This document shows, piece after piece, positions 14,513 through 22,249 of a stretch of DNA of 60,555 bases. Each line of letters opens with the position of its first letter. Positions within the stretch are counted from its first letter, which is position 1. The stretch comes from an uncultured Gemmiger sp. (lineage in GTDB: Bacteria; Bacillota; Clostridia; Oscillospirales; Ruminococcaceae), in the NCBI GenBank assembly GCA_944382785.1, contig CALWNO010000010.1, positions 1-60,555 of the forward strand. Reading direction: 5' to 3'. A model generated the notes under the pieces. That model was not told the DNA's origin. It searched no databases and saw only the letters and a list, made by a program, of their open reading frames with translations. Position numbers and translations under genes: made by a program.

Positions 14513-14575
14513 AAACGGCCTCCTTGGCAGGAAAAACGGTCCCTGCATGATGATGGTTGCCCGTGCAGGCAAAGC

Positions 14576-14604
14576 AAAAGCCCCGGCACAAAGCCGGGGC
14601 TTTT
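14576..14604 (-). terminator. Stranded original terminator of tRNA-Leu(GAG)
   Basis: A perfect 12-bp stem (14576-14587 with 14593-14604) with A/T runs at the arm ends lies about 26 bases beyond the left copy of the tRNA 3' end (14630-14655). On the minus strand this is where the terminator of an uninterrupted tRNA-Leu(GAG) gene would be. The integrated element now separates it from the tRNA by 7.5 kb. It could also insulate the MATE gene. Confidence 0.7.
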
Positions 14605-14629
14605 GGACGGAGGAAAACCCCCGAAAATC

Positions 14630-14655
14630 TGGTGCGGAAGATGGGACTTGAACCC
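14630..14655. repeat. Left attachment-site repeat
   Basis: These 26 bases are identical to 22166-22191, the 3' end of tRNA-Leu(GAG) including CCA and part of the T-arm. Here they stand alone without the rest of the tRNA, so this is the distal junction. Confidence 0.92.
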
Positions 14656-14764
14656 CGCCATAAAGCTGCCGGTGCGAGTTTTATATTCATAATATCGAAT
14701 TGCTGCGCGGTTTCTGGAACTTTCGGCCTGTTTCCGTGCGGCAAATTCATAACGGAAAAAATAA

Positions 14765-14786
14765 AAGTGCGGTAAAAAGTGCGGTA
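14765..14786. repeat. Left pair of integrase arm-type repeats
   Basis: AAGTGCGGTA occurs twice, 12 bases apart (14765-14774 and 14777-14786). A matching pair with the same spacing lies at the right end (22097-22117). A weaker copy, GTGCGGCA, is at 14736-14743. Paired short direct repeats near both ends of an element are typical arm-binding sites for tyrosine integrases. Confidence 0.7.
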
Positions 14787-14789
14787 TAA

Positions 14790-15860
14790 TCAGGCGTTAT
14801 TTAGCAATCGAAGGAAAATTCCATTGACGGCCTGAGCAGTGTTTTCGGCATCGCCGGTCAGAGTGTGGCTGTATATGCCGAATGTGTCCATGTCCTCGCT
14901 GTGACCCACCAAGGGTTTGATTTCCCCTGCGGGCAGCGTCTTAACCACAGAAACAAAGGTGTGCCGCAGCTCGTACGGAGAACAGGGAGTCAGTCCGTTT
15001 TCGCGGCAGTAGACCCTCCAACGGTGATAATAATACTGCTCTGACACGATGCAAAAGACACTATCTTCGCCGCCTGTATGCTGATGCTGATCTTCCAGCA
15101 CTCGCTGTGCCATATCAGACATAACGAAGGAACGAACAGCGTTCTGATTCTTGCCTTGCGTCTCCTCTCCGTCCACATTGATGGAGCGGGCCACATTTAC
15201 CGTCTTTCCATGAATATCAGACCAACGAAGGCCAATCAGTTCTCCTGGCCGCAAGCCGGTGAGTACCTGGAAGCGGTATGCGTTTATGAATTCGTCCCGT
15301 ACAGTGTTTCCCTTGTATGTTGTTGTGTCTGTATTGAACAGCTTTATTAGATCGGAAGGCTGCAGCACCGTTTTACCTTTGTACCGCGCCCCGGCGGGAA
15401 TTTTCAGATCTTCGGGGATATACTGCGAAAGTTTGGATTTCCGGCAGTACTTACAGAACGCTCTCATATCCGCGCTCAGCAGTTGCAGCGTCTTGCGACT
15501 GCGCCCGGCAGTGTGGGCCTTGTTTATTACGTTCTGCAGGTCTTGATCGTTGAGGGCGTTCACGCGCTTATTACCGATTACCGGCAACACCCAGTTGCGC
15601 CAACGGCTCTCCAGCGGCCTGTAATTCGTACTGCTGGTGGTCTGTTGTACCTCTAACAGCCATTTACCTCCGGCATCATTCACACGCGGGGAACGGGCCT
15701 CTATTCCGTCGTCAAGCCAGGCATCAGCTTTTGCATTGGCCTCGCGCTGGCCTGTTTTTCCGGGCTTGCTGCTGTAAAAGCTCTTTCGGATTCCATCCTT
15801 TTGAACGTCAATGCGCCACCGCTTGCCGTTCCATGCAGCAGTATTCGTTCGTTTACCCAT
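14790..15860 (-). CDS. int: Site-specific tyrosine integrase
   Basis: A 356-residue phage-type integrase that should recombine the element with the tRNA-Leu(GAG) site. The N-terminus holds an arm-binding domain (GKRWRIDVQKDGIRKSFYSSKPGKTGQREA), followed by a core-binding SAM-like domain (about residues 65-150) and the catalytic domain. Catalytic residues: Arg204 in TGLRPGE, a lysine near 238, Arg299 in YELRHTF, His320 in LVGHS and Tyr330 in IYSHT. The first box II position is Tyr instead of His, a frequent variant in Gram-positive phages. The gene lies 135 bases from the left att repeat and reads toward it. Confidence 0.95.
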   Translation of the reverse strand: MGKRTNTAAWNGKRWRIDVQKDGIRKSFYSSKPGKTGQREANAKADAWLDDGIEARSPRVNDAGGKWLLEVQQTTSSTNYRPLESRWRNWVLPVIGNKRVNALNDQDLQNVINKAHTAGRSRKTLQLLSADMRAFCKYCRKSKLSQYIPEDLKIPAGARYKGKTVLQPSDLIKLFNTDTTTYKGNTVRDEFINAYRFQVLTGLRPGELIGLRWSDIHGKTVNVARSINVDGEETQGKNQNAVRSFVMSDMAQRVLEDQHQHTGGEDSVFCIVSEQYYYHRWRVYCRENGLTPCSPYELRHTFVSVVKTLPAGEIKPLVGHSEDMDTFGIYSHTLTGDAENTAQAVNGIFLRLLNNA

Positions 15861-15944
15861 AAAAATCTACCTATCACAAATAAGTGGACAAAGCACAAGC
15901 AAGGCATTATGCTGGCATCTGCTGCAAATGCACTAATTCGGAGT

Positions 15945-16457
15945 CTATTCATCTGCGTCCTGCGCGTCATCCGAAAGAAGATTTAGGGATAGCTTTTCTT
16001 CTGACAGGATAATATCAAGAGCCTTGTCCAAGAAATGTATTGCATTGTCGGCAATAGAAACTACTATCATCTCGTTTTTAGGATGATATGCAATTTTGTC
16101 GGACAATGCTGTCGTTTCATATCCTCTGCGTCTATTTTCTTCTGCGTCCATTCTTTTTGCAACATTCATGTGAGTGTACAATTTTGCCGCAAACTCCGAT
16201 GCAAGCCGATTTATAGTGCTATCATCTGTGATTTTAGGAACAGGAAGAAAGGAATCAGATTGTCCACTCAAGTAGCTTATCGGAACGTCTAGGATTTTAC
16301 TAATCTCTAAAAGTTGTTCTACGCTAGGGCTTCTCGCCCCTTTTTCGTATCGCATAATAGAAACGCCAGTTACTCCAATCGCATTTCCTAACATATCTTG
16401 CGTGAGCCCTCTTAGCTCTCGCATTTTTTTTATTCTATCTCCTATTATGTTTGCCAC
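15945..16457 (-). CDS. XRE-family (CI-like) repressor
   Basis: A 170-residue protein with an N-terminal helix-turn-helix (residues 1-65: IKKMRELRGLTQDMLGNAIGVTGVSIMRYEKGARSPSVEQLLEISKIL) and a longer C-terminal region rich in charged residues that may dimerise or sense a signal. No Ala-Gly/Ser/Lys LexA-type autocleavage motif is visible, so it is unlikely to respond to DNA damage by self-cleavage; in satellites such repressors are often removed by a helper phage protein. It is transcribed away from the Cro-like gene. Confidence 0.85.
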   Translation of the reverse strand: MANIIGDRIKKMRELRGLTQDMLGNAIGVTGVSIMRYEKGARSPSVEQLLEISKILDVPISYLSGQSDSFLPVPKITDDSTINRLASEFAAKLYTHMNVAKRMDAEENRRRGYETTALSDKIAYHPKNEMIVVSIADNAIHFLDKALDIILSEEKLSLNLLSDDAQDADE

Positions 16458-16478
16458 TGAACAATCACCTCATTTATG

Positions 16479-16507
16479 ATTCTAACACAATTACCGGGAA
16501 AAAACAA
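16479..16507 (-). promoter_or_regulatory. Repressor (maintenance) promoter
   Basis: On the minus strand TTGTTT, 17 bases, TAGAAT, about 20 bases before the repressor ATG. The first operator (16507-16517) touches its -35 box, so the repressor may regulate itself. Confidence 0.65.
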
Positions 16508-16570
16508 CCGATTTGGAAACCAAACTGGCTTGACATACAACCAATTCGGTGGTATACTAACCGTATCGGT
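16507..16570. promoter_or_regulatory. Three similar operators in the divergent switch region
   Basis: ACCGATTTGGA (16507-16517), ACCAATTCGGT (16540-16550) and ACCGTATCGGT (16560-16570) share the form ACC-N5-GG(T/A), an imperfect 11-base palindrome. The second sits in the spacer of the early promoter and the third just after its -10 box, so binding there would shut the early genes off. Confidence 0.7.
16530..16558 (+). promoter_or_regulatory. Early (lytic/replication) promoter of the element
   Basis: TTGACA, 17 bases, TATACT: a near-consensus sigma-A promoter driving the Cro-like gene and the early operon. It overlaps two of the three predicted operators. Confidence 0.85.
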
Positions 16571-16587
16571 AGGAGGTGCTTGCTTGT

Positions 16588-16785
16588 ATGAAACTCAGTA
16601 AAAGCAAGGTTGAGATCAATCTTGCTAGAAACGGCATGAATGCACGCGAACTTCGTTCAAAGGGAATCTCATCAACCACTTTGACGCGTGCAATGCAAGG
16701 CAGATCAATCACCGCAAAAAGTGCCGGACGAATCGCAAAAGCCATAGGAGTTGATATTACTGAAATCATTGAAAAAGAGGATTAA
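16588..16785 (+). CDS. Cro-like helix-turn-helix protein
   Basis: A 65-residue DNA-binding protein starting at the ATG at 16588, 11 bases after AGGAGG. The pattern NLARNGMNARELRSKGISSTTLTRAMQGRSITAKSAGRIAKAIGVDITEII is an XRE-type fold without a further domain. As the first gene of the early operon, opposite the repressor, it most likely plays the Cro role by turning off the repressor promoter. A GTG four codons upstream is possible but overlaps the ribosome binding site. Confidence 0.8.
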   Translation: MKLSKSKVEINLARNGMNARELRSKGISSTTLTRAMQGRSITAKSAGRIAKAIGVDITEIIEKED

Positions 16786-16797
16786 AGGAGGTGCACC

Positions 16798-17022
16798 ATG
16801 GAAATATCACACGACAGTGCTTTTGTAATTGCCAGAGCGCTTGACTACTACGCCGAACACATGGAGGACACCGCAAGCCGCGAGAAGTCGCACGGAATGG
16901 CGAAATCGGCGGAATTCCTTGACTATGAAGCGAACGAAGCCCGGAAAGCGAGAGCCGAAATCTTAGATGGCATCGGGCTTCAGCAGGACAGCCCGGCGGC
17001 GGTTCCTGTTAAGTTTGAATAA
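16798..17022 (+). CDS. Small hypothetical protein of the element
   Basis: A 74-residue acidic, helical-looking protein with no recognised motif (sequence begins MEISHDSAFVIARALDYYAEHMED). AAAGGAGGTG lies directly upstream, so it is well translated. It is 12 bases after the Cro-like gene. A role in replication control or excision is possible only by position. Confidence 0.65.
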   Translation: MEISHDSAFVIARALDYYAEHMEDTASREKSHGMAKSAEFLDYEANEARKARAEILDGIGLQQDSPAAVPVKFE

Positions 17023-17050
17023 TCACCAGTGGACGCGAAAGGAGTACACA

Positions 17051-17272
17051 ATGAGACCATTTTACAACTTGCGTGTTCGTTTTGCGGAATGCGAAATCAC
17101 GCAAAATGAAGTTGCCCGGCGGGCTGGTATGGCGCCCAGCACAATGACTTCTCGCATGAATGGGCAACAGCCCTTTGACGCGTGGCAGATGGACGCCGTT
17201 GCCGATGTTCTGAAAATTGACCGTGCCGACTATGGTAAATACTTCTTCCCGCCGAAGAAGGTAAAGACATGA
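17051..17272 (+). CDS. Small helix-turn-helix protein of the element
   Basis: A 73-residue protein. The pattern FAECEITQNEVARRAGMAPSTMTSRMNGQQPFDAWQMDAVADVLKI is a short XRE/Cro-like helix-turn-helix. The ATG at 17051 follows AAAGGAGTACACA; an upstream in-frame reading from 16967 runs inside the previous gene. It could be a second regulator or an excisionase. Its stop overlaps the start of the next gene (ATGA). Confidence 0.7.
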   Translation: MRPFYNLRVRFAECEITQNEVARRAGMAPSTMTSRMNGQQPFDAWQMDAVADVLKIDRADYGKYFFPPKKVKT

Positions 17273-17550
17273 CCGGCAAAGATTTGCAGCGGCTGGTGAA
17301 GCTGCTGATCCGCAAGACCGTAGAGCTGGCAGCGGTCTGCACCGGGTTCTGTATCCTGGCGGCACTGGCCGCCCTCAATGTCCCCGCGCTGCTGGCCTGT
17401 CTGCTGCTGGAAAATGCCCTGCTGGGCCTGTGGTTTGCACTCGAATGCAAAAAGGCCGCCCCGGTGCTGGAACACCGGAACGGCCAAGGCGGTAATTTTA
17501 GAACAGGTTACCGCCTTCAATATAGCAAAATTGGAGGTAAAAGTCAATGA
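17269..17550 (+). CDS. Small membrane protein of the element
   Basis: A 93-residue protein with two adjacent hydrophobic segments (about residues 19-52) and a polar, basic C-terminus. No family recognised. It overlaps its neighbours on both sides by four bases (ATGA), so it is part of a translationally coupled run. Small membrane proteins in this place of phages and satellites can act in superinfection exclusion; nothing in the sequence proves that. Confidence 0.6.
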   Translation: MTGKDLQRLVKLLIRKTVELAAVCTGFCILAALAALNVPALLACLLLENALLGLWFALECKKAAPVLEHRNGQGGNFRTGYRLQYSKIGGKSQ

Positions 17551-17846
17551 ATAAAAGTGAAGTGGAACGCTCCCGCGAGCAAATCATTAAGAATGTTTTA
17601 GAGCTCTCTCCGAATTCCATCAAAATTGTTTCTACGGTTATTCGATGGTTATATTGCTATTATGAACAAAAAGCTCCGGATAAAATGACCGATGAGGAAA
17701 TGGTCAGATATAAAATTGCGCTTTTTGCGGTTCTTAGTGACTTTTGTGAAGTGAAAGAACTTGATGTATGGCGCCGCGCAGTGGCTTCCATATACATGGA
17801 TAAACGCAAGGGAAAAAGAAGCAAGAGGATGCAAACGGGTAAGTGA
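17547..17846 (+). CDS. Hypothetical protein of the element
   Basis: A 99-residue, mostly helical, basic protein (ends DKRKGKRSKRMQTGK). GGAGGTAAAAGTCA precedes its ATG, inside the end of the previous gene. No recognised domain. Codon use is AT-rich compared with the flanking chromosome. Confidence 0.6.
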   Translation: MNKSEVERSREQIIKNVLELSPNSIKIVSTVIRWLYCYYEQKAPDKMTDEEMVRYKIALFAVLSDFCEVKELDVWRRAVASIYMDKRKGKRSKRMQTGK

Positions 17847-17930
17847 CAAGGCAGAGTAAATGGTGCCTGTGTGGTCACGAGAGTTTTGCACATGTCACTG
17901 ACGTTTTATATCAATTGGGAGATTCGGAAA

Positions 17931-18275
17931 ATGGAAGTCATAGATTTTTTGGGGCATGGAGCAGAAAAGGCGGTAAAGGCCGCTGTGCTTTGTGAAAAGA
18001 TGAAAACAACGCCGAGGGGGCTGCGCCATTACATTGCGACAGAAAGGCAGGCCGGACATGAAATACTGTACCAGCCCGGCGGATCAGGTGGCTATTTCCT
18101 GCCAAGCCTTGACCCTGAAAAGGCCCAGGAAGAGCGGCAAGCGTTTTATAAGGTGATGCATGCCCGTGCAATGTGTACGCTGAAAGCACTGCGCCCGGTG
18201 GCGCAGGCTTTGGGGGTCCCTGCGGGGCAGATGAGTGTGGAGCTTTTCGAGTATGGGGCGGAAAAAGAAAGTTGA
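17931..18275 (+). CDS. Winged-helix phage-type protein
   Basis: A 114-residue protein starting at the ATG at 17931 (GGGAG upstream). The N-terminal half fits a winged helix: KAAVLCEKMKTTPRGLRHYIATERQAG, then a wing ILYQPGGSGGYFLPS. A helical tail follows. Proteins of this build often lie next to replication genes in clostridial phages. It overlaps the following initiator-like gene by 23 bases. Confidence 0.6.
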   Translation: MEVIDFLGHGAEKAVKAAVLCEKMKTTPRGLRHYIATERQAGHEILYQPGGSGGYFLPSLDPEKAQEERQAFYKVMHARAMCTLKALRPVAQALGVPAGQMSVELFEYGAEKES

Positions 18276-18621
18276 TCCGCCGTATTGGGTCACGGGCAAG
18301 GGCTGTGGTAAATCAAAAAACGGCCAACCTCTTCCATTTGTCCAGATATATGCTGATCTGATGCAGGACCCTGGATTTCACTCGCTCACAGCAAGTGCCC
18401 GGTGGTGCTACTTGTCAATGGTAATGGAAGCAAAGGGAAAACAGTGTTTTGAGTTTACGCGAAAAACTGCGGAGCACTACGGGATTGCAAAACGCACACT
18501 TGTCCGCAATGTTCGGGAATTGTCCGATTCCGGATTTTTGAAGTGCCTCAGTGGAAGAACCACACGAACTGCCAGCGAGTACGAGTTTTCAATGGATTGG
18601 AAGCTAAAAAAGCTAAAATAG
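18253..18621 (+). CDS. Replication-initiator-like winged-helix protein
   Basis: A 122-residue protein with a domain like that of phage and plasmid replication initiators: FVQIYADLMQDPGFHSLTASARWCYLSMVMEAKGK, then the DNA-binding stretch FTRKTAEHYGIAKRTLVRNVRELSDSGFLKCLSG. It is much shorter than usual initiators, having no second domain. The gene stops at 18619-18621, and directly after it come four 7-3-7 palindromes in 140 bases, the expected place for its origin. In the same frame downstream, short open pieces between stop codons encode CAKMAQ-like peptides, so the ancestral protein may have been longer. Confidence 0.65.
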   Translation: MGRKKKVDPPYWVTGKGCGKSKNGQPLPFVQIYADLMQDPGFHSLTASARWCYLSMVMEAKGKQCFEFTRKTAEHYGIAKRTLVRNVRELSDSGFLKCLSGRTTRTASEYEFSMDWKLKKLK

Positions 18622-18651
18622 AAAGCTAATATATGGCTATATATAAGATAC

Positions 18652-18789
18652 TGTGCCATATTGGCACAAGGTTAATGACGAACAACATAAGATGCTTATG
18701 CCAAAATGGCACAAGATGTCCTAGATAGTAAGCCAAATGAGGGTAAATCTTGTGCCAAAGTGGCACAAGCCTTGTGCCGTTTTGGCACA
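18652..18789. repeat. Four TGTGCCA-N3-TGGCACA palindromes, probable replication origin iterons
   Basis: Sites at 18652-18668 (TGTGCCATATTGGCACA), 18697-18713 (first base pair changed), 18751-18767 and 18773-18789 (one mismatch). The 7-base arms are almost invariant while the 3-base centre varies (TAT, AAA, AAG, TTT), which points to a dimeric protein binding the arms. The whole stretch 18622-18979 carries no convincing gene and is AT-rich downstream of the sites, as origins are. Confidence 0.75.
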
Positions 18790-18979
18790 GCCAAAATGTT
18801 TCTACCACGGTTATTTGCCATGTGGTGGGCTGGTAATGATGCAAAGCTTGCGAGTACATCGGTTTTTGCAGAAAAAACACAGGTTATTTCCGTAATAACC
18901 AATGTTTTTGTTTCAATAATCTTTGTTTCTTCAAGCATTATATGCTGAAATCAGAAAAAAGACAGGAGGATGTATTTTT

Positions 18980-19105
18980 ATGAATGTGACGTTTACATTT
19001 ACCACGCAACAGGCTATTGACCTGGCTTATCTCATCAAGCGAAATGAAAAGAATCCGTGGCTGATCCGTATGGTGCTGGCCTTTGCCAAGCCGTTGGCGA
19101 GATGA
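18980..19105 (+). CDS. Very small ORF of the element
   Basis: A 41-residue ORF with a good ribosome binding site (GACAGGAGG about nine bases before the ATG). The sequence (MNVTFTFTTQQAIDLAYLIKRNEKN...) is amphipathic with a hydrophobic C-terminus. No family recognised. Its stop codon overlaps the start of the next small ORF (ATGA). Confidence 0.45.
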   Translation: MNVTFTFTTQQAIDLAYLIKRNEKNPWLIRMVLAFAKPLAR

Positions 19106-19203
19106 GGCGGACAGCCTTTTACTTACGCAGCCATGACGGTACGGCGCCCGGCGGGCGCGTGTCCAATGTGGACACAACGGTGTTGCAGCGGATACATGAC
19201 TGA
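19102..19203 (+). CDS. Tiny coupled ORF containing a palindrome
   Basis: A 33-residue ORF coupled to the previous one by ATGA. It has no known motif, but the stretch coding for VSNVDTT is itself a perfect GTGTCCA-ATG-TGGACAC palindrome. It may be the remnant of a longer protein whose gene held binding sites, rather than a working gene. Confidence 0.35.
   Translation: MRRTAFYLRSHDGTAPGGRVSNVDTTVLQRIHD
19159..19175. repeat. GTGTCCA-N3-TGGACAC palindrome, left copy
   Basis: A 17-base perfect palindrome (apart from the 3-base centre) of the same 7-3-7 build as the four origin sites but with different arms. Its only partner in the element is at 22016-22032, just after the capsid gene. Confidence 0.7.
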
Positions 19204-19323
19204 CCCCAGGCGCGGACAACGTAGAGAAAGGGGGAGAAAGTTAAGTTTTGCTTACGACATGGTAACATTGTGAGCCATATTAGTGATAGAATCATCTAAA
19301 AATATTTTTTTGAGGTGATTTGT

Positions 19324-19536
19324 ATGGCAAGAGAAAAAGAGGGTTACCGTGATGCATTGGAGCGTGTGCGCCGGGAGGCTGCCGGGGAACTGGTAACGGT
19401 GGCAGAAGCTGCCAAGATAGTCTATGGGCCTGATGATCGGTACGGTCCGCGAAAAGTTACCCAGTTGCATGGATGGATTGGAAAAAATAAGGGCAAGAGG
19501 ATTCCGGCTACGGTCCTTGCCAGCCAAATCTGCTGA
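19324..19536 (+). CDS. Small putative DNA-binding protein
   Basis: A 70-residue protein. ELVTVAEAAKIVYGPDDRYGPRKVTQLHGWIGKNKGKRIPATVLAS looks like a MerR/AlpA-type helix-turn-helix, as in excisionases and some phage late-gene regulators. The ATG at 19324 is preceded by GAGGTGA. It begins the second half of the element after a 120-base gap with AT-rich sequence that may hold a promoter. Confidence 0.5.
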   Translation: MAREKEGYRDALERVRREAAGELVTVAEAAKIVYGPDDRYGPRKVTQLHGWIGKNKGKRIPATVLASQIC

Positions 19537-19592
19537 AAAGAAAAATACAGAGTGCAACACTCTGACTGCATGTAATGTGAGGTGTTTTATTG

Positions 19593-19973
19593 ATGGGTAA
19601 AATTGGGATTGATCGTCTTTCAGAAGAATTGGGAGATCTTCTTGACGACTACGCCGAAGAAGTTGCCGAAGCGGTCAAAGATTCTGCAAAGGCACGAGCT
19701 GCCCAGGTGAAGAAAGAAATCAAACAGAATTCTCCTAAAGATACTGGAGAGTATGCGAAAGGATGGTCGGTTACGACCATCAAGGAAGGCAAGGAGGCTA
19801 TTGGTGCTGTTGTCCACAACAAGAAGGAGCCACAGCTTGCGCATCTTCTGGAGTTTGGCCACGCCAAGCAAAACGGCGGTCGTGTGGAGGGCCATCCCCA
19901 TATTGGCCCGGCGGAACAAAAAGCGGTAAAGGCTTTTGTGGATGATATCAAAAAAGCGGTGGCAGGAAAGTGA
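19593..19973 (+). CDS. HK97 gp10-like phage protein
   Basis: A 126-residue protein of the HK97 gp10 type, a head-tail joining/tail component in siphophages. The family pattern is clear: KARAAQVKKEIKQNSPKDTGEYAKGW, then VVHNKKEPQLAHLLEFGHAKQNGGRVEGHPHIGPAEQKA. The ATG at 19593 follows GAGGTG. Such a gene normally lies after the capsid and connector genes; here it comes before them and without its usual neighbours, one reason to think this is a satellite with a selected set of virion genes. Confidence 0.85.
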   Translation: MGKIGIDRLSEELGDLLDDYAEEVAEAVKDSAKARAAQVKKEIKQNSPKDTGEYAKGWSVTTIKEGKEAIGAVVHNKKEPQLAHLLEFGHAKQNGGRVEGHPHIGPAEQKAVKAFVDDIKKAVAGK

Positions 19974-19974
19974 A

Positions 19975-20574
19975 ATGAAAAATGTCTACATAATTACGGG
20001 AGCTCCCGGCAGTGGAAAAAGTACTTACGTGCGAAACCGTAAAGCGCCGAATGATCTGGTGATCGACCTCGATTATATTTGCGCAGCTCTGCAGCAAGAT
20101 ACCAACGTGCATAACAACCACGATGCTGTATATCAAGCAGCCGTTTGCATGCGCGATTCTTTGTATCCATTTATTGCTATGAGGTATGGAAACTGGAACG
20201 ACTGCTGGATCATAACCAGCGAGGCCCGGCGGGACAAGCTGAAAGAGTTGGCCAAAAAAGTAGGGGCGACTGATATCATCGAAATGGAAACAGCCCTTAC
20301 GGAAACCTTGAACCGAATTGATAATGATCAGAGTCGTGTGCTCCGGGCGGAGGACTTTAAGGAGATGGCAAAACGGTGGCACGCGTTGCATGACCGCCCC
20401 CCCCCTATACAAAAAAATAGGGGACACGAAAAAGACCGGATGGGCAACTTTTTTTTCCTCTCCCGGGGTCAAAAGTTTTTCTTTGGAAGGCGTTACCCAA
20501 TAGGAGTTGGTCGGAATTGGCAGGAAATAACTGGAAATGGAAAAAAATCGCACCGGGCCGCTTTTTGGCTGTGA
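19975..20574 (+). CDS. P-loop ATPase/kinase-like protein
   Basis: A 199-residue protein starting two bases after the gp10-like gene. Walker A is GAPGSGKST at about residues 8-16, and a DLD stretch at about 36-38 may act in nucleotide or metal binding. Similar small P-loop proteins are found near terminase genes of clostridial phages. The last 60 residues are odd: very basic, Phe-rich and coded by C-, A- and T-runs with a 7-bp hairpin (20402-20423), so this part may be a DNA site that happens to be open. Catalytic role unknown. Confidence 0.65.
   Translation: MKNVYIITGAPGSGKSTYVRNRKAPNDLVIDLDYICAALQQDTNVHNNHDAVYQAAVCMRDSLYPFIAMRYGNWNDCWIITSEARRDKLKELAKKVGATDIIEMETALTETLNRIDNDQSRVLRAEDFKEMAKRWHALHDRPPPIQKNRGHEKDRMGNFFFLSRGQKFFFGRRYPIGVGRNWQEITGNGKKSHRAAFWL
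20397..20500. other. Homopolymer-rich, hairpin-bearing region, possible packaging (cos-like) site
   Basis: A C-run, the stem CCCCTAT/ATAGGGG (20402-20408 with 20417-20423), then GACCGGATGGGCAAC, an eight-T run and CCCGGGG follow within 100 bases, at the end of the P-loop gene. From memory, such C/G-tract plus GACCGG-T-run blocks lie at terminase-adjacent cos regions of some Gram-positive phages. No terminase is here to confirm it. Confidence 0.35.
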
Positions 20575-20735
20575 CTACATGCCAGCGGTGTGGTGTAGAG
20601 TTTAACAATGGCAATGTGGCAGCGTCTAAATACTGCCCGGAGTGCGCCAAGATTGTGCAGCGGGAAAAGACCCGCGAGCGCGTTCGCAAATGGCGCGCAA
20701 ATAAAAAGGCTGACCGCCGCGATCACGGCGCTTAG
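20517..20735 (+). CDS. Small zinc-ribbon protein
   Basis: A 72-residue basic protein (TTG start at 20517, TAGGAG upstream). CQRC at about residues 22-25 and CPEC at about 40-43 form a four-cysteine zinc site; a basic helix KIVQREKTRERVRKWRANKKAD follows, suited to nucleic acid binding. The start codon is uncertain. Small zinc-finger proteins of this kind are seen near HNH/terminase genes in phages; here it precedes the capsid gene. Confidence 0.6.
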   Translation: MAGNNWKWKKIAPGRFLAVTTCQRCGVEFNNGNVAASKYCPECAKIVQREKTRERVRKWRANKKADRRDHGA

Positions 20736-20836
20736 CATATATGGCCCGGAGATTTGTAGACGGAGCGATCTACAATCAAGGCGGAGCGACTGGAACGGGC
20801 AAACACAAAAACTCATTCTCATGTTGGAGGTTTAAC

Positions 20837-22006
20837 ATGAACAGAAAAGAAGAAATTGAAGCCCGCCTTGCGGCTATCCGTTTGGAGGTTGACGCGCCGG
20901 GGGCTGATCTGGATGCGCTGACCGAAGAAGTGCGCAGCCTGAAGGAAGAACAGAGGCATATCGAAGAAGCAGCAGAAAACCGCCGCAAACAGCGTGAGGC
21001 CGTTGCAAAAGGTGCCGGTACCCTTATTGGCAGCTTTGACGGCCCGGGCAGTGGTTTTGTCAGAAGCGGAGTATACCGTAAAACGAAAGAAGGGAAAGAG
21101 ATGGGCGGAAGTATGGATATCCGTTCTTTTCAGAAGTATGTTGCCGAAGGCAGCATTGTGAACATGTCCGTTGAAGAACGGGCAGGCCTTGTCACCAGCG
21201 GGGCAGGGGCCGTCATGCCTGTGGACATTTTCGAACGTATGATTACCAGCAGCAAGTATAGCGACCTTCTGAGCCGCGCTACTGTCATGAATCTGTCCGG
21301 TGCTGGAACCGTGAAGGTTCCCGTTGCATCCAATACCGCTGCCAGTTGGAAAACCGAGCTGCAGCCGGTTGACCCCACAGCGCCCACCCTGACGAGCCTG
21401 GATCTGGGGGGAAAGGAACTGATGCGCGCTATCCAGTACAGCGCAGCCGTGGAGCACATGACCGCTGAACAGTTCACCGACTGGATGGCCGACCTGTGCG
21501 CCTCTGAGGTTGTGGAAACTCTGGAAGCGGCATTTATTACCGCCACTGAGGGCACTGACGCGCCGCACAATGGCTTGCAGAATCTGACCTGGACGCCCAA
21601 CACTAACGAGATCGAGGCCACCGGCGAGATCACCGCCGCGGACGTAGCAAAAGGCCTCTCCCTGCTGCCGCAGAAGTACGCCCGCAACGCCATTCTGCTG
21701 ATGAATGCGAACACGGCATATAACACCGTGGGCCTGTTCAAAGGCACCAGTGAATACGCTTATAGCCTGGCAGACGGTGCAGCCCGCTTCATGAGCAAGG
21801 AAATCCACATTTCTGAGTACTGCGCGGACAAAGAGATCTACATCGTTGACCCGGCGCAGCTTTATGTGCGGTTTGCTATGCAGCCGGTTGTTGAGGTCGA
21901 CAAGTCTGCGGGCTTCCTGTCTGCTGCCAATACCATGCGCTGCCTGACTGTGGTGGACTTTGCATGGAACACGACCGCTGCTGTGCGTGTTGGCATTGCC
22001 GGCTGA
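20837..22006 (+). CDS. HK97-family major capsid protein
   Basis: A 389-residue capsid protein. The N-terminal 60 residues are a coiled-coil scaffold (delta) domain (RKEEIEARLAAIRLEV...ALTEEVRSLKEEQRHIEEAAENRRKQRE), followed by the HK97 fold with the typical SAGAVMPVDIFERMITSSKYSDLLSRATVM, LVTSG and late VRVGIAG patterns. The ATG at 20837 has GGAGG six bases upstream. The delta domain is normally removed by a prohead protease, but none is coded in the element, nor a portal or terminase. Either a helper phage supplies them or the protein forms altered capsids with helper proteins. Confidence 0.88.
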   Translation: MNRKEEIEARLAAIRLEVDAPGADLDALTEEVRSLKEEQRHIEEAAENRRKQREAVAKGAGTLIGSFDGPGSGFVRSGVYRKTKEGKEMGGSMDIRSFQKYVAEGSIVNMSVEERAGLVTSGAGAVMPVDIFERMITSSKYSDLLSRATVMNLSGAGTVKVPVASNTAASWKTELQPVDPTAPTLTSLDLGGKELMRAIQYSAAVEHMTAEQFTDWMADLCASEVVETLEAAFITATEGTDAPHNGLQNLTWTPNTNEIEATGEITAADVAKGLSLLPQKYARNAILLMNANTAYNTVGLFKGTSEYAYSLADGAARFMSKEIHISEYCADKEIYIVDPAQLYVRFAMQPVVEVDKSAGFLSAANTMRCLTVVDFAWNTTAAVRVGIAG

Positions 22007-22013
22007 TAAATCA

Positions 22014-22034
22014 GCGTGTCCATATTGGACACGC
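22014..22034. repeat. GTGTCCA-N3-TGGACAC palindrome, right copy
   Basis: Nine-base arms GCGTGTCCA and TGGACACGC flank the centre TAT, eight bases after the capsid stop codon. There is no T-run, so it is not a normal terminator. The core is the same as at 19159-19175. Confidence 0.7.
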
Positions 22035-22096
22035 GCTTGACCGGAATACTTATCCTGGATGGTATTTCACTGTCATTTTGAAGCAGCTTCGTGATG

Positions 22097-22117
22097 AGTG
22101 CGGTCAAAAGTGCGGTA
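22097..22117. repeat. Right pair of integrase arm-type repeats
   Basis: AGTGCGGTC (22097-22105) and AGTGCGGTA (22109-22117), 12 bases apart and in the same orientation as the pair at 14765-14786. Together they mark the two ends of the element's recombination site. Confidence 0.7.
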
Positions 22118-22122
22118 AAGCA

Positions 22123-22165
22123 TAAAGAAAGAGCCTAAGAACTTGCGTTCCTAGGCTCTTTTCTT
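22123..22165 (-). terminator. Element-supplied terminator for tRNA-Leu(GAG)
   Basis: A 13-bp stem (22130-22142 with 22147-22159) with loop TTGC directly follows the tRNA in the minus direction and ends in TTTCTTT. The single non-Watson-Crick position becomes a G-U pair in the minus-strand RNA, which supports reading from the tRNA. Confidence 0.8.
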
Positions 22166-22249
22166 TGGTGCGGAAGATGGGACTTGAACCCACACGTCAT
22201 GGACACACGCACCTCAAACGTGCCTGTCTGCCGATTCCAGCACTTCCGC
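22166..22249 (-). tRNA. tRNA-Leu, anticodon GAG, CCA encoded
   Basis: Class II tRNA of 84 bases on the minus strand with acceptor GCGGAAG/CTTCCGC and the anticodon loop TTGAGGT (anticodon GAG). The last 26 bases form the att repeat, so the integrated element preserves the whole tRNA. It should read CUC and CUU codons. Confidence 0.95.

Follow-up and report, generated by a model that had tools for sequence, protein, structure and literature searches.

A compact satellite-like element with its own capsid gene in an uncultured Gemmiger species

Introduction

Satellites built on a homologue of the phage major capsid protein (MCP) are already known, and what a satellite capsid gene does when it stands alone has been worked out for SaPIbov5. 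Its Ccm protein is an HK97-type MCP homologue with a delta domain, 24% identical to the capsid protein (CP) of the helper phage, and is the sole satellite protein required, forming the pentamers of T=4 shells (PMC8569155). Ccm turns the prolate head of the helper into a T=4 head, and is unable to build shells by itself (PMC8569155; PMC5052747; review PMC6893505). Expression of Ccm alone lowered the helper titre 1,000- to 10,000-fold, and the tested pac phages, whose CP is without a delta domain, were left unblocked (PMC5052747); the authors suggest that the delta domain matters for the range of affected phages (PMC8569155, PMC5052747). Here we analyzed a 60,555-bp stretch of DNA from an uncultured Gemmiger sp. 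(contig CALWNO010000010.1 of assembly GCA_944382785.1; hereafter the window) and describe within it an integrated element of 7,536 bp that carries an MCP gene of its own. We lean, by analogy with SaPIbov5, toward reading it as a satellite resembling the phage-inducible chromosomal islands (PICIs), whose capsid homologue would redirect helper head assembly in a Ccm-like manner.

Capsid genes are common in Gram-negative PICIs, where an MCP gene is present in 21 of 29 reference elements and is their commonest late gene (PMC10111431). Together with Ccm of SaPIbov5 (PMC8569155), this count gives no support to a preliminary description of the present locus, which had called a capsid gene without terminase or portal an unusual set. 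The same source describes the Gram-negative capsid genes as dispensable for transfer (PMC10111431), and one deletion, that of the capsid gene of EcCICFT073, did not restore normal phage growth (PMC6092414). Capsid-forming PICIs (cfPICIs) encode their own capsid and packaging proteins (PMC12409344, PMC11389934). Virus-like particles of the Ruminococcaceae and Oscillospiraceae package 4.6-8.9-kb DNA, and gene transfer agent (GTA)-like particles hold 8.4-8.9 kb in Faecalibacterium and Gemmiger, with capsids of about 40 nm in F. prausnitzii (PMC12946183).

Results

A Capsid Core Shared by Two Otherwise Unrelated Compact Elements

The capsid gene and the borders of the element are as follows, in window coordinates:
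20837..22006, plus strand: MCP gene, 389 amino acids (PF05065, 4.2e-19; TIGR01554, 5.6e-27, above cut-off)
20744..20835, plus strand: scar directly before the MCP gene, the tail of a frameshifted prohead-protease gene
14630..14655: left attachment site (attL), a 26-bp copy of the tRNA-Leu 3' end, exactly matching 22166-22191
22166..22191: right attachment site (attR), inside the tRNA-Leu(gag) gene (22166-22249, minus strand), whose 3' end it forms

The MCP aligned with the HK97 family across residues 3-383, that is, over its full length with delta and core; residues 1-62 are a delta (scaffold) domain of local prophage type, and residues ~95-389 are a core of satellite type. MCP matches were found at 24 places in 22 of 394 genomes, and at 21 of these places a portal match (PF04860; below the curated cut-off in one genome, G126) lay at most 5 kb away on the same contig (G, C, and L numbers are our handles for genomes, contigs, and loci). 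The three places without a portal match were the present element, an element of Merdimmobilis, and a 3,023-bp contig (G314), which was set aside. The Merdimmobilis and window MCPs were 65% identical over the aligned length and 78-79% identical in the core; no other match in the 394 genomes exceeded 37% over the matched part. A further two samples, with 396 and 394 genomes and some overlap between samples, added a single close relative (G436), on a contig equal in length to that of L004, and a peptide-pattern scan of genome contigs for the MCP returned only L004 and L005, both from Merdimmobilis. In a tree of 21 MCP cores, the window core grouped with these two (support 100/100), and a branch of 2.24 changes per column separated them from the 18 remaining cores, which came from prophages, phages, viral contigs, and cfPICI-like elements and included two long branches (L030 and L044). 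The window and Merdimmobilis cores differed by 0.15 nonsynonymous changes per site (dN) and about 1.5 synonymous changes per site (dS), the latter near saturation, giving a rough dN/dS of about 0.10; even so, the core has evidently evolved under purifying selection. The protease-MCP genes of L004 and L005 differed at 11 nonsynonymous and 17 synonymous positions.

The element of Merdimmobilis hominis (L005), whose genus belongs to the family of the present host, is 7,289 bp long and bounded by a 28-bp repeat of a tRNA-Gly 3' end; for the empty-site comparison there, the tRNA and the flank lay on separate contigs in G145. Besides small open reading frames (ORFs), it encodes an integrase, a repressor, a replication protein of the phrog_3584 family, and a prohead protease fused to the MCP (PF04586, 1.2e-32; PF05065, 2.8e-19), and no portal or terminase ORF was found in it. 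Its integrase was ~20% identical to that of the window, and beyond the MCP and the integrase no window protein had a tblastn match in it at E 1e-3; the lengths of the two genomes differ by ~3% (n = 2). Thus, two compact elements in different genera, at different tRNA sites, and on different backbones carry the same private capsid core. Because the core is 78% shared with an otherwise unrelated element that is also without portal and terminase, a simple deleted prophage is, on the sequence comparison, an unlikely origin. This recurrence comprises two species of one other genus, and selection on the core could have acted in an unsampled phage. As a side observation in Merdimmobilis, a 480-amino-acid ORF resembling a terminase large subunit (TerL) occurs at positions 12977-14419 of L128 (G223:C18), in a neighborhood of helix-turn-helix (HTH) and metallopeptidase-like genes where inspection by eye recognized neither a portal nor a capsid gene. 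We had at one point taken G223 to be without terminase, PF04860 and PF03354 both being absent, and dropped this when the wider phrog_2 profile gave a TerL-like ORF there.

Relatives of the capsid protein outside these genomes were remote. A peptide-pattern scan of viral contigs found none above 26% identity to the window MCP, and tblastn of phage records gave two matches, at 30%. The whole element had no match among plasmids, and its matches in 10 phage records were confined to pieces of 1-4% of its length. Three virome records of 7-8 kb found there seem not to be the same satellite: L080 has an MCP that aligns like that of phage nd12, and L081 and L082 have mainly the integrase in common with the element (L081 also one weak HTH match). 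The genome of the host itself contains three PF05065 places, namely this MCP and the phage-like regions C25 and C32.

Structure searches placed the protein among capsids. A search of PDB sequences with the MCP alone gave 0 matches at E up to 1, and a three-core profile gave one irrelevant match (E 0.31); a profile of 16 MCPs returned 23 sequences at E<=1, among which GTA and phage MCPs scored best (Rcc01687, and also 7rwz_B, a 402-amino-acid chain), with no 355-amino-acid Ccm chain among the 23. A first AlphaFold model was unusable (mean predicted local distance difference test, pLDDT, 37) and a second was moderate (57); the latter suffices for fold assignment only, and its best 50 Foldseek rows were all capsids or encapsulins. 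The MCP is therefore modeled as having the HK97 fold. The element thus resembles the Ccm system in that its MCP homologue is remote from phage CPs, includes a delta domain, and has a predicted HK97 fold (model mean pLDDT 57).

Separate Affinities of the Delta Domain and the Core

The delta domain and the core of the MCP pointed to different relatives. Residues 1-62 were 71%, 63%, and 65% identical to the MCPs of prophages L032, L037, and L038, respectively, whereas the core was 17-20% identical to the same three by multiple alignment and 22-27% by pairwise alignment. The comparison with Merdimmobilis showed the reverse, namely 24% in the delta domain and 78-79% in the core. The prophage-like sequence extends upstream of the gene, as the DNA from 20744 to 20982-21012, beginning at the protease scar, is 72-73% identical to the protease 3' and MCP 5' ends of L032, L037, and L038. 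We abandoned the idea that such a chimera is unique to the satellite, since phage pairs show the same mosaicism (L037 and L038: delta 65%, core 24%). Among the prophage HK97-type MCPs of the family (L032, L037, L038, and L042), delta and core were apparently inherited separately.

Insertion Site and Empty Sites in Related Genomes

The element occupies positions 14656-22191 and is flanked by the 26-bp exact direct repeat 14630-14655/22166-22191. The preliminary description was right about a discrete element between exact tRNA repeats and about the end coordinate 22191; its start at 14630 includes attL, and the element proper begins at 14656. The original terminator of tRNA-Leu now lies just left of attL (about 14575-14605), and the following features lie inside the two ends:
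22128..22161, minus strand: terminator-like hairpin (15 pairs) supplied by the element, now following tRNA-Leu on the tRNA strand
14766..14786: arm-type repeat near attL, AGTGCGGT pair, 95% identical to 22097-22117
22097..22117: arm-type repeat near attR, pair of the copy at 14766-14786
A scan for terminator-like hairpins found 16 sites versus 9.3 in shuffles. The arm-type repeats are probably arm sites of the integrase.

The left flank, mostly a MATE-like gene, had a match in 33 of 35 genomes of the genus, and 10 such loci were fetched, the own locus and 9 from other species. In three of the latter (L050, L051, and L052), the terminator, the att core in single copy, the tRNA, and a trkA-like gene were directly consecutive, so that 3 of 3 syntenic sites retaining the att core were empty; the other six (L053-L058) were without an exact att core in the fetched stretch and are uninformative on occupancy. 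None of these three genomes had a full prophage at the same tRNA-Leu site. Such a prophage, which the preliminary description had named as the sign of a simple deletion, thus did not appear when the site was checked in related genomes. The G+C content of the element is 49%, versus 59-60% in its flanks. As in PICIs, the integrase is located at one end, adjoining attL, the element has its own att site, and the corresponding sites of relatives are empty.

Gene Content of the Element

The remaining features of the element are as follows:
14790..15860, minus strand: tyrosine integrase, 356 amino acids (PF00589, 1e-13; phrog_1, 4.3e-42)
15945..16457, minus strand: HTH repressor, 170 amino acids, GTG start (HTH_3, 2e-13; phrog_8, 7.4e-18)
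16530..16558, plus strand: early promoter in the divergent switch (11/12 consensus), TTGACA-17-TATACT, its -10 preceded by TG
16588..17846, plus strand: early operon of five small ORFs, from the ORF list and profile searches: 16588-16785 (HTH), 16798-17022, 17051-17272 (Cro/C1-like HTH), 17269-17550, and 17547-17846
17931..18275, plus strand: ORF of the phrog_2113 family, whose function is unassigned (weak)
18235 or 18256..18621, plus strand: weak initiator- or DnaD-like ORF (phrog_8102, E 0.0021; phrog_186, E 0.0024)
18650..18790: iterons, four somewhat degenerate copies of TGTGCCA-N3-TGGCACA (7-3-7, palindromic)
18980..19105 and 19324..19536, plus strand: two small ORFs of no family
19159..19175: palindrome GTGTCCANNNTGGACAC, copy 1
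19593..19973, plus strand: HK97-gp10-like (tail-completion or neck) protein, 126 amino acids (PF04883, 1.2e-13; phrog_5, 7.6e-20)
19975..20574, plus strand: P-loop protein (phrog_4581, 1.7e-27, a family labeled terminase small subunit, TerS)
20517..20735, plus strand: zinc-ribbon ORF, 72 amino acids, TTG start, overlapping the P-loop ORF (weak matches only)
22016..22032: palindrome GTGTCCANNNTGGACAC, copy 2, beginning 10 bp past the last base of the MCP stop codon

Sense ORFs of at least 180 amino acids in the element were limited to those of the integrase, the P-loop protein, and the MCP, and three more listed at this size were antisense; thus, no ORF was large enough for a TerL or a portal, and neither is encoded. 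Profile and ORF searches of the element for head genes returned only the MCP and gp10, with no protease, portal, or terminase. A complete structural, packaging, and lysis set was accordingly absent, as in PICIs, and so was the cfPICI set of portal, protease, MCP, and terminase genes. An Rfam scan gave no match at the gathering threshold, and PADLOC found no convincing defence match among ten element proteins (best E 0.0033).

Most of the gene content given in the preliminary description was recovered: the integrase, divergent switch, and short early operon had profile matches (PF00589, HTH_3), as did the gp10-like, P-loop, and capsid genes (PF04883, phrog_4581, PF05065), and the lack of terminase, portal, and protease agreed with ORF sizes and profile searches. 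Other parts held by half. The iterons attributed to an initiator-like gene are present in four copies, but the initiator matches themselves are weak; the zinc-ribbon ORF exists, with profile matches that are also weak. Of the well-formed promoters, the early promoter is near consensus, but the promoter scan as a whole gave 10 promoter-like sites versus 8.3 in shuffles, so that this promoter is consensus evidence only. In the one strain available for the species, the integrase and MCP frames are free of internal stops and frameshifts, as had been stated for all frames, but the frameshifted protease scar had been missed.

A divergent switch and iterons are present, but the initiator assignment that would complete a PICI-like replication module is weak, and no primase was among the profile matches. 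The genes at 17931..18621 are probable replication genes, and the iteron stretch 18650..18790 is a probable origin, both judged from sequence features.

In the late module, gp10 was closest to prophages L037 (of the same genus) and L032 (50%), followed by L038 (39%); it stands upstream of the P-loop and MCP genes in the element versus downstream of the MCP in the compared prophages. The P-loop protein is conserved up to about residue 148, with a divergent tail, and relatives occurred in 10 of 295 genomes, the own genome included; a peptide-pattern scan of viral contigs found none. It aligned to the C-terminal half of HNH-P-loop ORFs in L041 (cfPICI-like) and L115 (prophage), where these ORFs stand directly ahead of TerS-like and TerL ORFs (HNH and TerS assigned by eye); in the element, it stands without HNH, TerS, or TerL. 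Since its homologues sit right before TerS-like and TerL ORFs, the P-loop gene is probably packaging-associated. Inside this ORF, at 20399-20450, are runs of C and of T (~8 each by eye), after which conservation ends; a length error or slippage may lie there.

The stretch 19146-19176, which includes palindrome copy 1, matched at 30 of 31 bp a site ~0.4 kb upstream of a TerS-like ORF (label by eye) in prophage L037. In the window, the 17-bp GTGTCCANNNTGGACAC, in its wider form GTGTCC-N5-GGACAC, occurs twice, both times within the element (shuffle mean 0.00), and the whole own genome holds a third site, on C47 (4056), ~1 kb from a related integrase. It recurs in prophages, for example directly past the MCP stop in L035; further loci with it are L037, L040, and L124. 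Of the six sites in G004, three fall within L037, a prophage stretch, and one more lies 0.5 kb past its end, and G033, G223, and G143 have zero sites. The palindrome is possibly a signal common to phages and satellites.

Backbone Relatives and Other Phage-Like Loci

Related integrases (E <1e-40) occurred at 17 places in 13 of the 35 genus genomes, the own genome included, which has a second one on C47 (71%). Eleven such loci were fetched (L117-L127), three of them short contig ends; the 17051 ORF had a 70-91% match in 7 of the 11, and the 17269 ORF had matches of up to 75%. From five of these loci, 37 ORFs were picked by hand out of 130 listed and matched 52 phage families, of which the best 25 were repressors, other regulators, sigma factors, primase/helicase families, and unassigned families; no head, portal, or terminase family was among these best 25. 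Because the integrase-related loci share the integrase and early ORF without head families among these best matches, the element looks, from its genes, like a common genus-specific integrative backbone that gained a capsid module. L122 (G000:C47), L118, L120, L123, and L124 form an element family with the same types of integrase and early ORF, and 5 of the 37 ORFs picked from them matched the phage sigma-factor family phrog_351.

Other loci were noted in passing. Tail genes were not seen in L036 (G388:C19) and L041 (G307:C42), which are cfPICI-like and combine an HNH or HNH-P-loop ORF with repressor, primase-like, portal, protease, MCP, TerL, and integrase genes (several of these labels were assigned by eye); related MCPs occur on IMG/VR contigs (e.g., L154-L158), several of them of about 12-15 kb. 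In the own genome, L133 (G000:C3:60000-79900) contains a 449-amino-acid portal-like and a 285-amino-acid capsid-like ORF near a phrog_2 terminase match with one TGA; read by eye, this cluster could be a prophage remnant or GTA-like.

Discussion

Precise insertion into tRNA-Leu, a tyrosine integrase adjoining attL, the divergent repressor and early arrangement, the iteron region, a late module of gp10, P-loop, and MCP genes, the absence of terminase and portal genes, and a capsid core conserved with a second compact element together make a PICI-like satellite with a Ccm-like capsid homologue the account that we somewhat favor. On this account, a helper phage of HK97/cos type would lift repression, and the element would then excise and replicate. 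Its MCP, via the helper-type delta domain, would form small shells together with the capsid protein and portal of the helper, and helper terminase and tails would complete particles with a load of about one 7.5-kb genome; the probable part of the P-loop and gp10 proteins is to adapt packaging or the head-tail junction. A load of 7.5 kb is a realistic head content, because packaging of 8.4-8.9 kb in GTA-like particles is documented in these host families (PMC12946183).

Several points weigh against this account. No significant helper match to delta, core, or gp10 was found in the resident phage-like regions compared (C25 and C32 whole, part of C3, and C84; C64 and C18 of the own genome, which also have phrog_2 matches, lay outside this comparison), and the same whole element occurred in no other sampled species. 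Orthology to Ccm is unsupported, as no Ccm match appeared in the PDB sequence and profile searches or among the best 50 Foldseek rows. The capsid deletion in EcCICFT073 failed to restore normal phage growth (PMC6092414). Finally, because mosaicism of delta and core also occurs between phages, the chimera alone would be no proof of co-assembly.

Of the other explanations, a reduced capsid-forming satellite, in which the MCP alone builds a small shell and the helper provides portal, terminase, and tail, fares best, and we still judge it unlikely. It would fit the full-length MCP (HK97 match over residues 3-383), the prohead protease fused to the MCP in the Merdimmobilis relative, the occurrence, within the same taxonomic order, of cfPICI-like elements that have head and terminase genes (L036 and L041), and the similar sizes of two elements (7,289 versus 7,536 bp; n = 2) with almost only the MCP core in common, as if the MCP fixed the load. 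However, the protease, portal, and terminase genes that cfPICIs encode were not found in the element, and the one MCP homologue studied was unable to form shells alone (PMC8569155).

That the locus is a prophage in decay or a mosaic formed by chance, with an integrative element having acquired head genes and now drifting, is distinctly improbable. The frameshifted protease scar before the MCP and the displaced gp10 gene would suit drift, but the integrase and MCP are intact, the MCP core shows the low, if rough, dN/dS against Merdimmobilis described above, and the three syntenic genomes are empty at the site, without prophages. The main argument against decay is that the set of capsid without portal recurs in a separate element with a different integrase, replication protein, and tRNA site. 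Slightly less credible still is an interference or immunity gene, the MCP poisoning the heads of a helper or competitor without serving the transfer of the element; the titre reduction by Ccm alone (PMC5052747) and the reported dispensability of Gram-negative capsid genes for transfer (PMC10111431) are in its favor, but the element holds the remaining satellite modules, and PADLOC gave no convincing match among the ten proteins scanned. Transfer in GTA-like particles of these families (4.6-8.9 kb) rather than phage is very hard to credit, since, even if a 7.5-kb genome fits a head of the kind reported (PMC12946183), the delta domain and gp10 point to HK97-type prophages.

A bolder extension of the satellite account, which we put forward only tentatively and hold to be doubtful, is that the element and its Merdimmobilis relative represent an undescribed Clostridia satellite lineage defined by a private capsid core; the core would set a small head for about 7.3-7.5 kb and move between unrelated satellite backbones, and the delta domain would be swapped with local prophages as a key to the helper. 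If so, the capsid core, the scaffold domain, and the backbone would be three modules, each inherited on its own. The element described here would also add a satellite type to the Ruminococcaceae/Oscillospiraceae. The same core in two otherwise unrelated elements of 7.3-7.5 kb, with few amino-acid changes for its synonymous divergence, makes two questions testable: whether delta chooses the helper and whether the core sets head size. A survey of open-licence literature, aimed at capsid-carrying satellites and partly at Clostridia, found no such element of Clostridia among the titles and abstract openings listed.

Compared with known systems, the element differs from GTAs, which are chromosomal head clusters without integrase or att that package random host DNA, in having an integrase, att sites, and empty sites in relatives. 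With cfPICIs it shares a satellite MCP lineage of its own, and in the cfPICI-like L036 and L041 the TerS-like ORF or TerL is preceded by an HNH or HNH-P-loop ORF; it differs in being without portal, protease, and terminase, and its core is 24-25% identical to those of L036 and L041. Gram-negative PICIs (EcCICFT073, PmCI172, and 11capE) share the MCP gene but belong to another phylum and have an alpA and primase backbone (PMC10111431), in contrast to the HTH switch, iterons, and weak initiator here. The Merdimmobilis hominis element (L005; relative L004) has in common the MCP core, a tRNA 3'-end site, a similar length, and the lack of portal and terminase; it differs in its protease-MCP fusion, phrog_3584 replication protein, integrase (~20%), delta domain (24%), and otherwise unrelated genes. 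SaPIbov5 is likewise a small integrated satellite of a Bacillota host with a delta-bearing HK97-type MCP homologue remote from phage CPs; the present element differs in its 7.5-kb genome, its combination of a helper-type delta domain with a satellite-type core, and its gp10 and P-loop genes. The apparent novelty lies in the presence of this lineage in these bacteria and in core, delta domain, and backbone being inherited separately.

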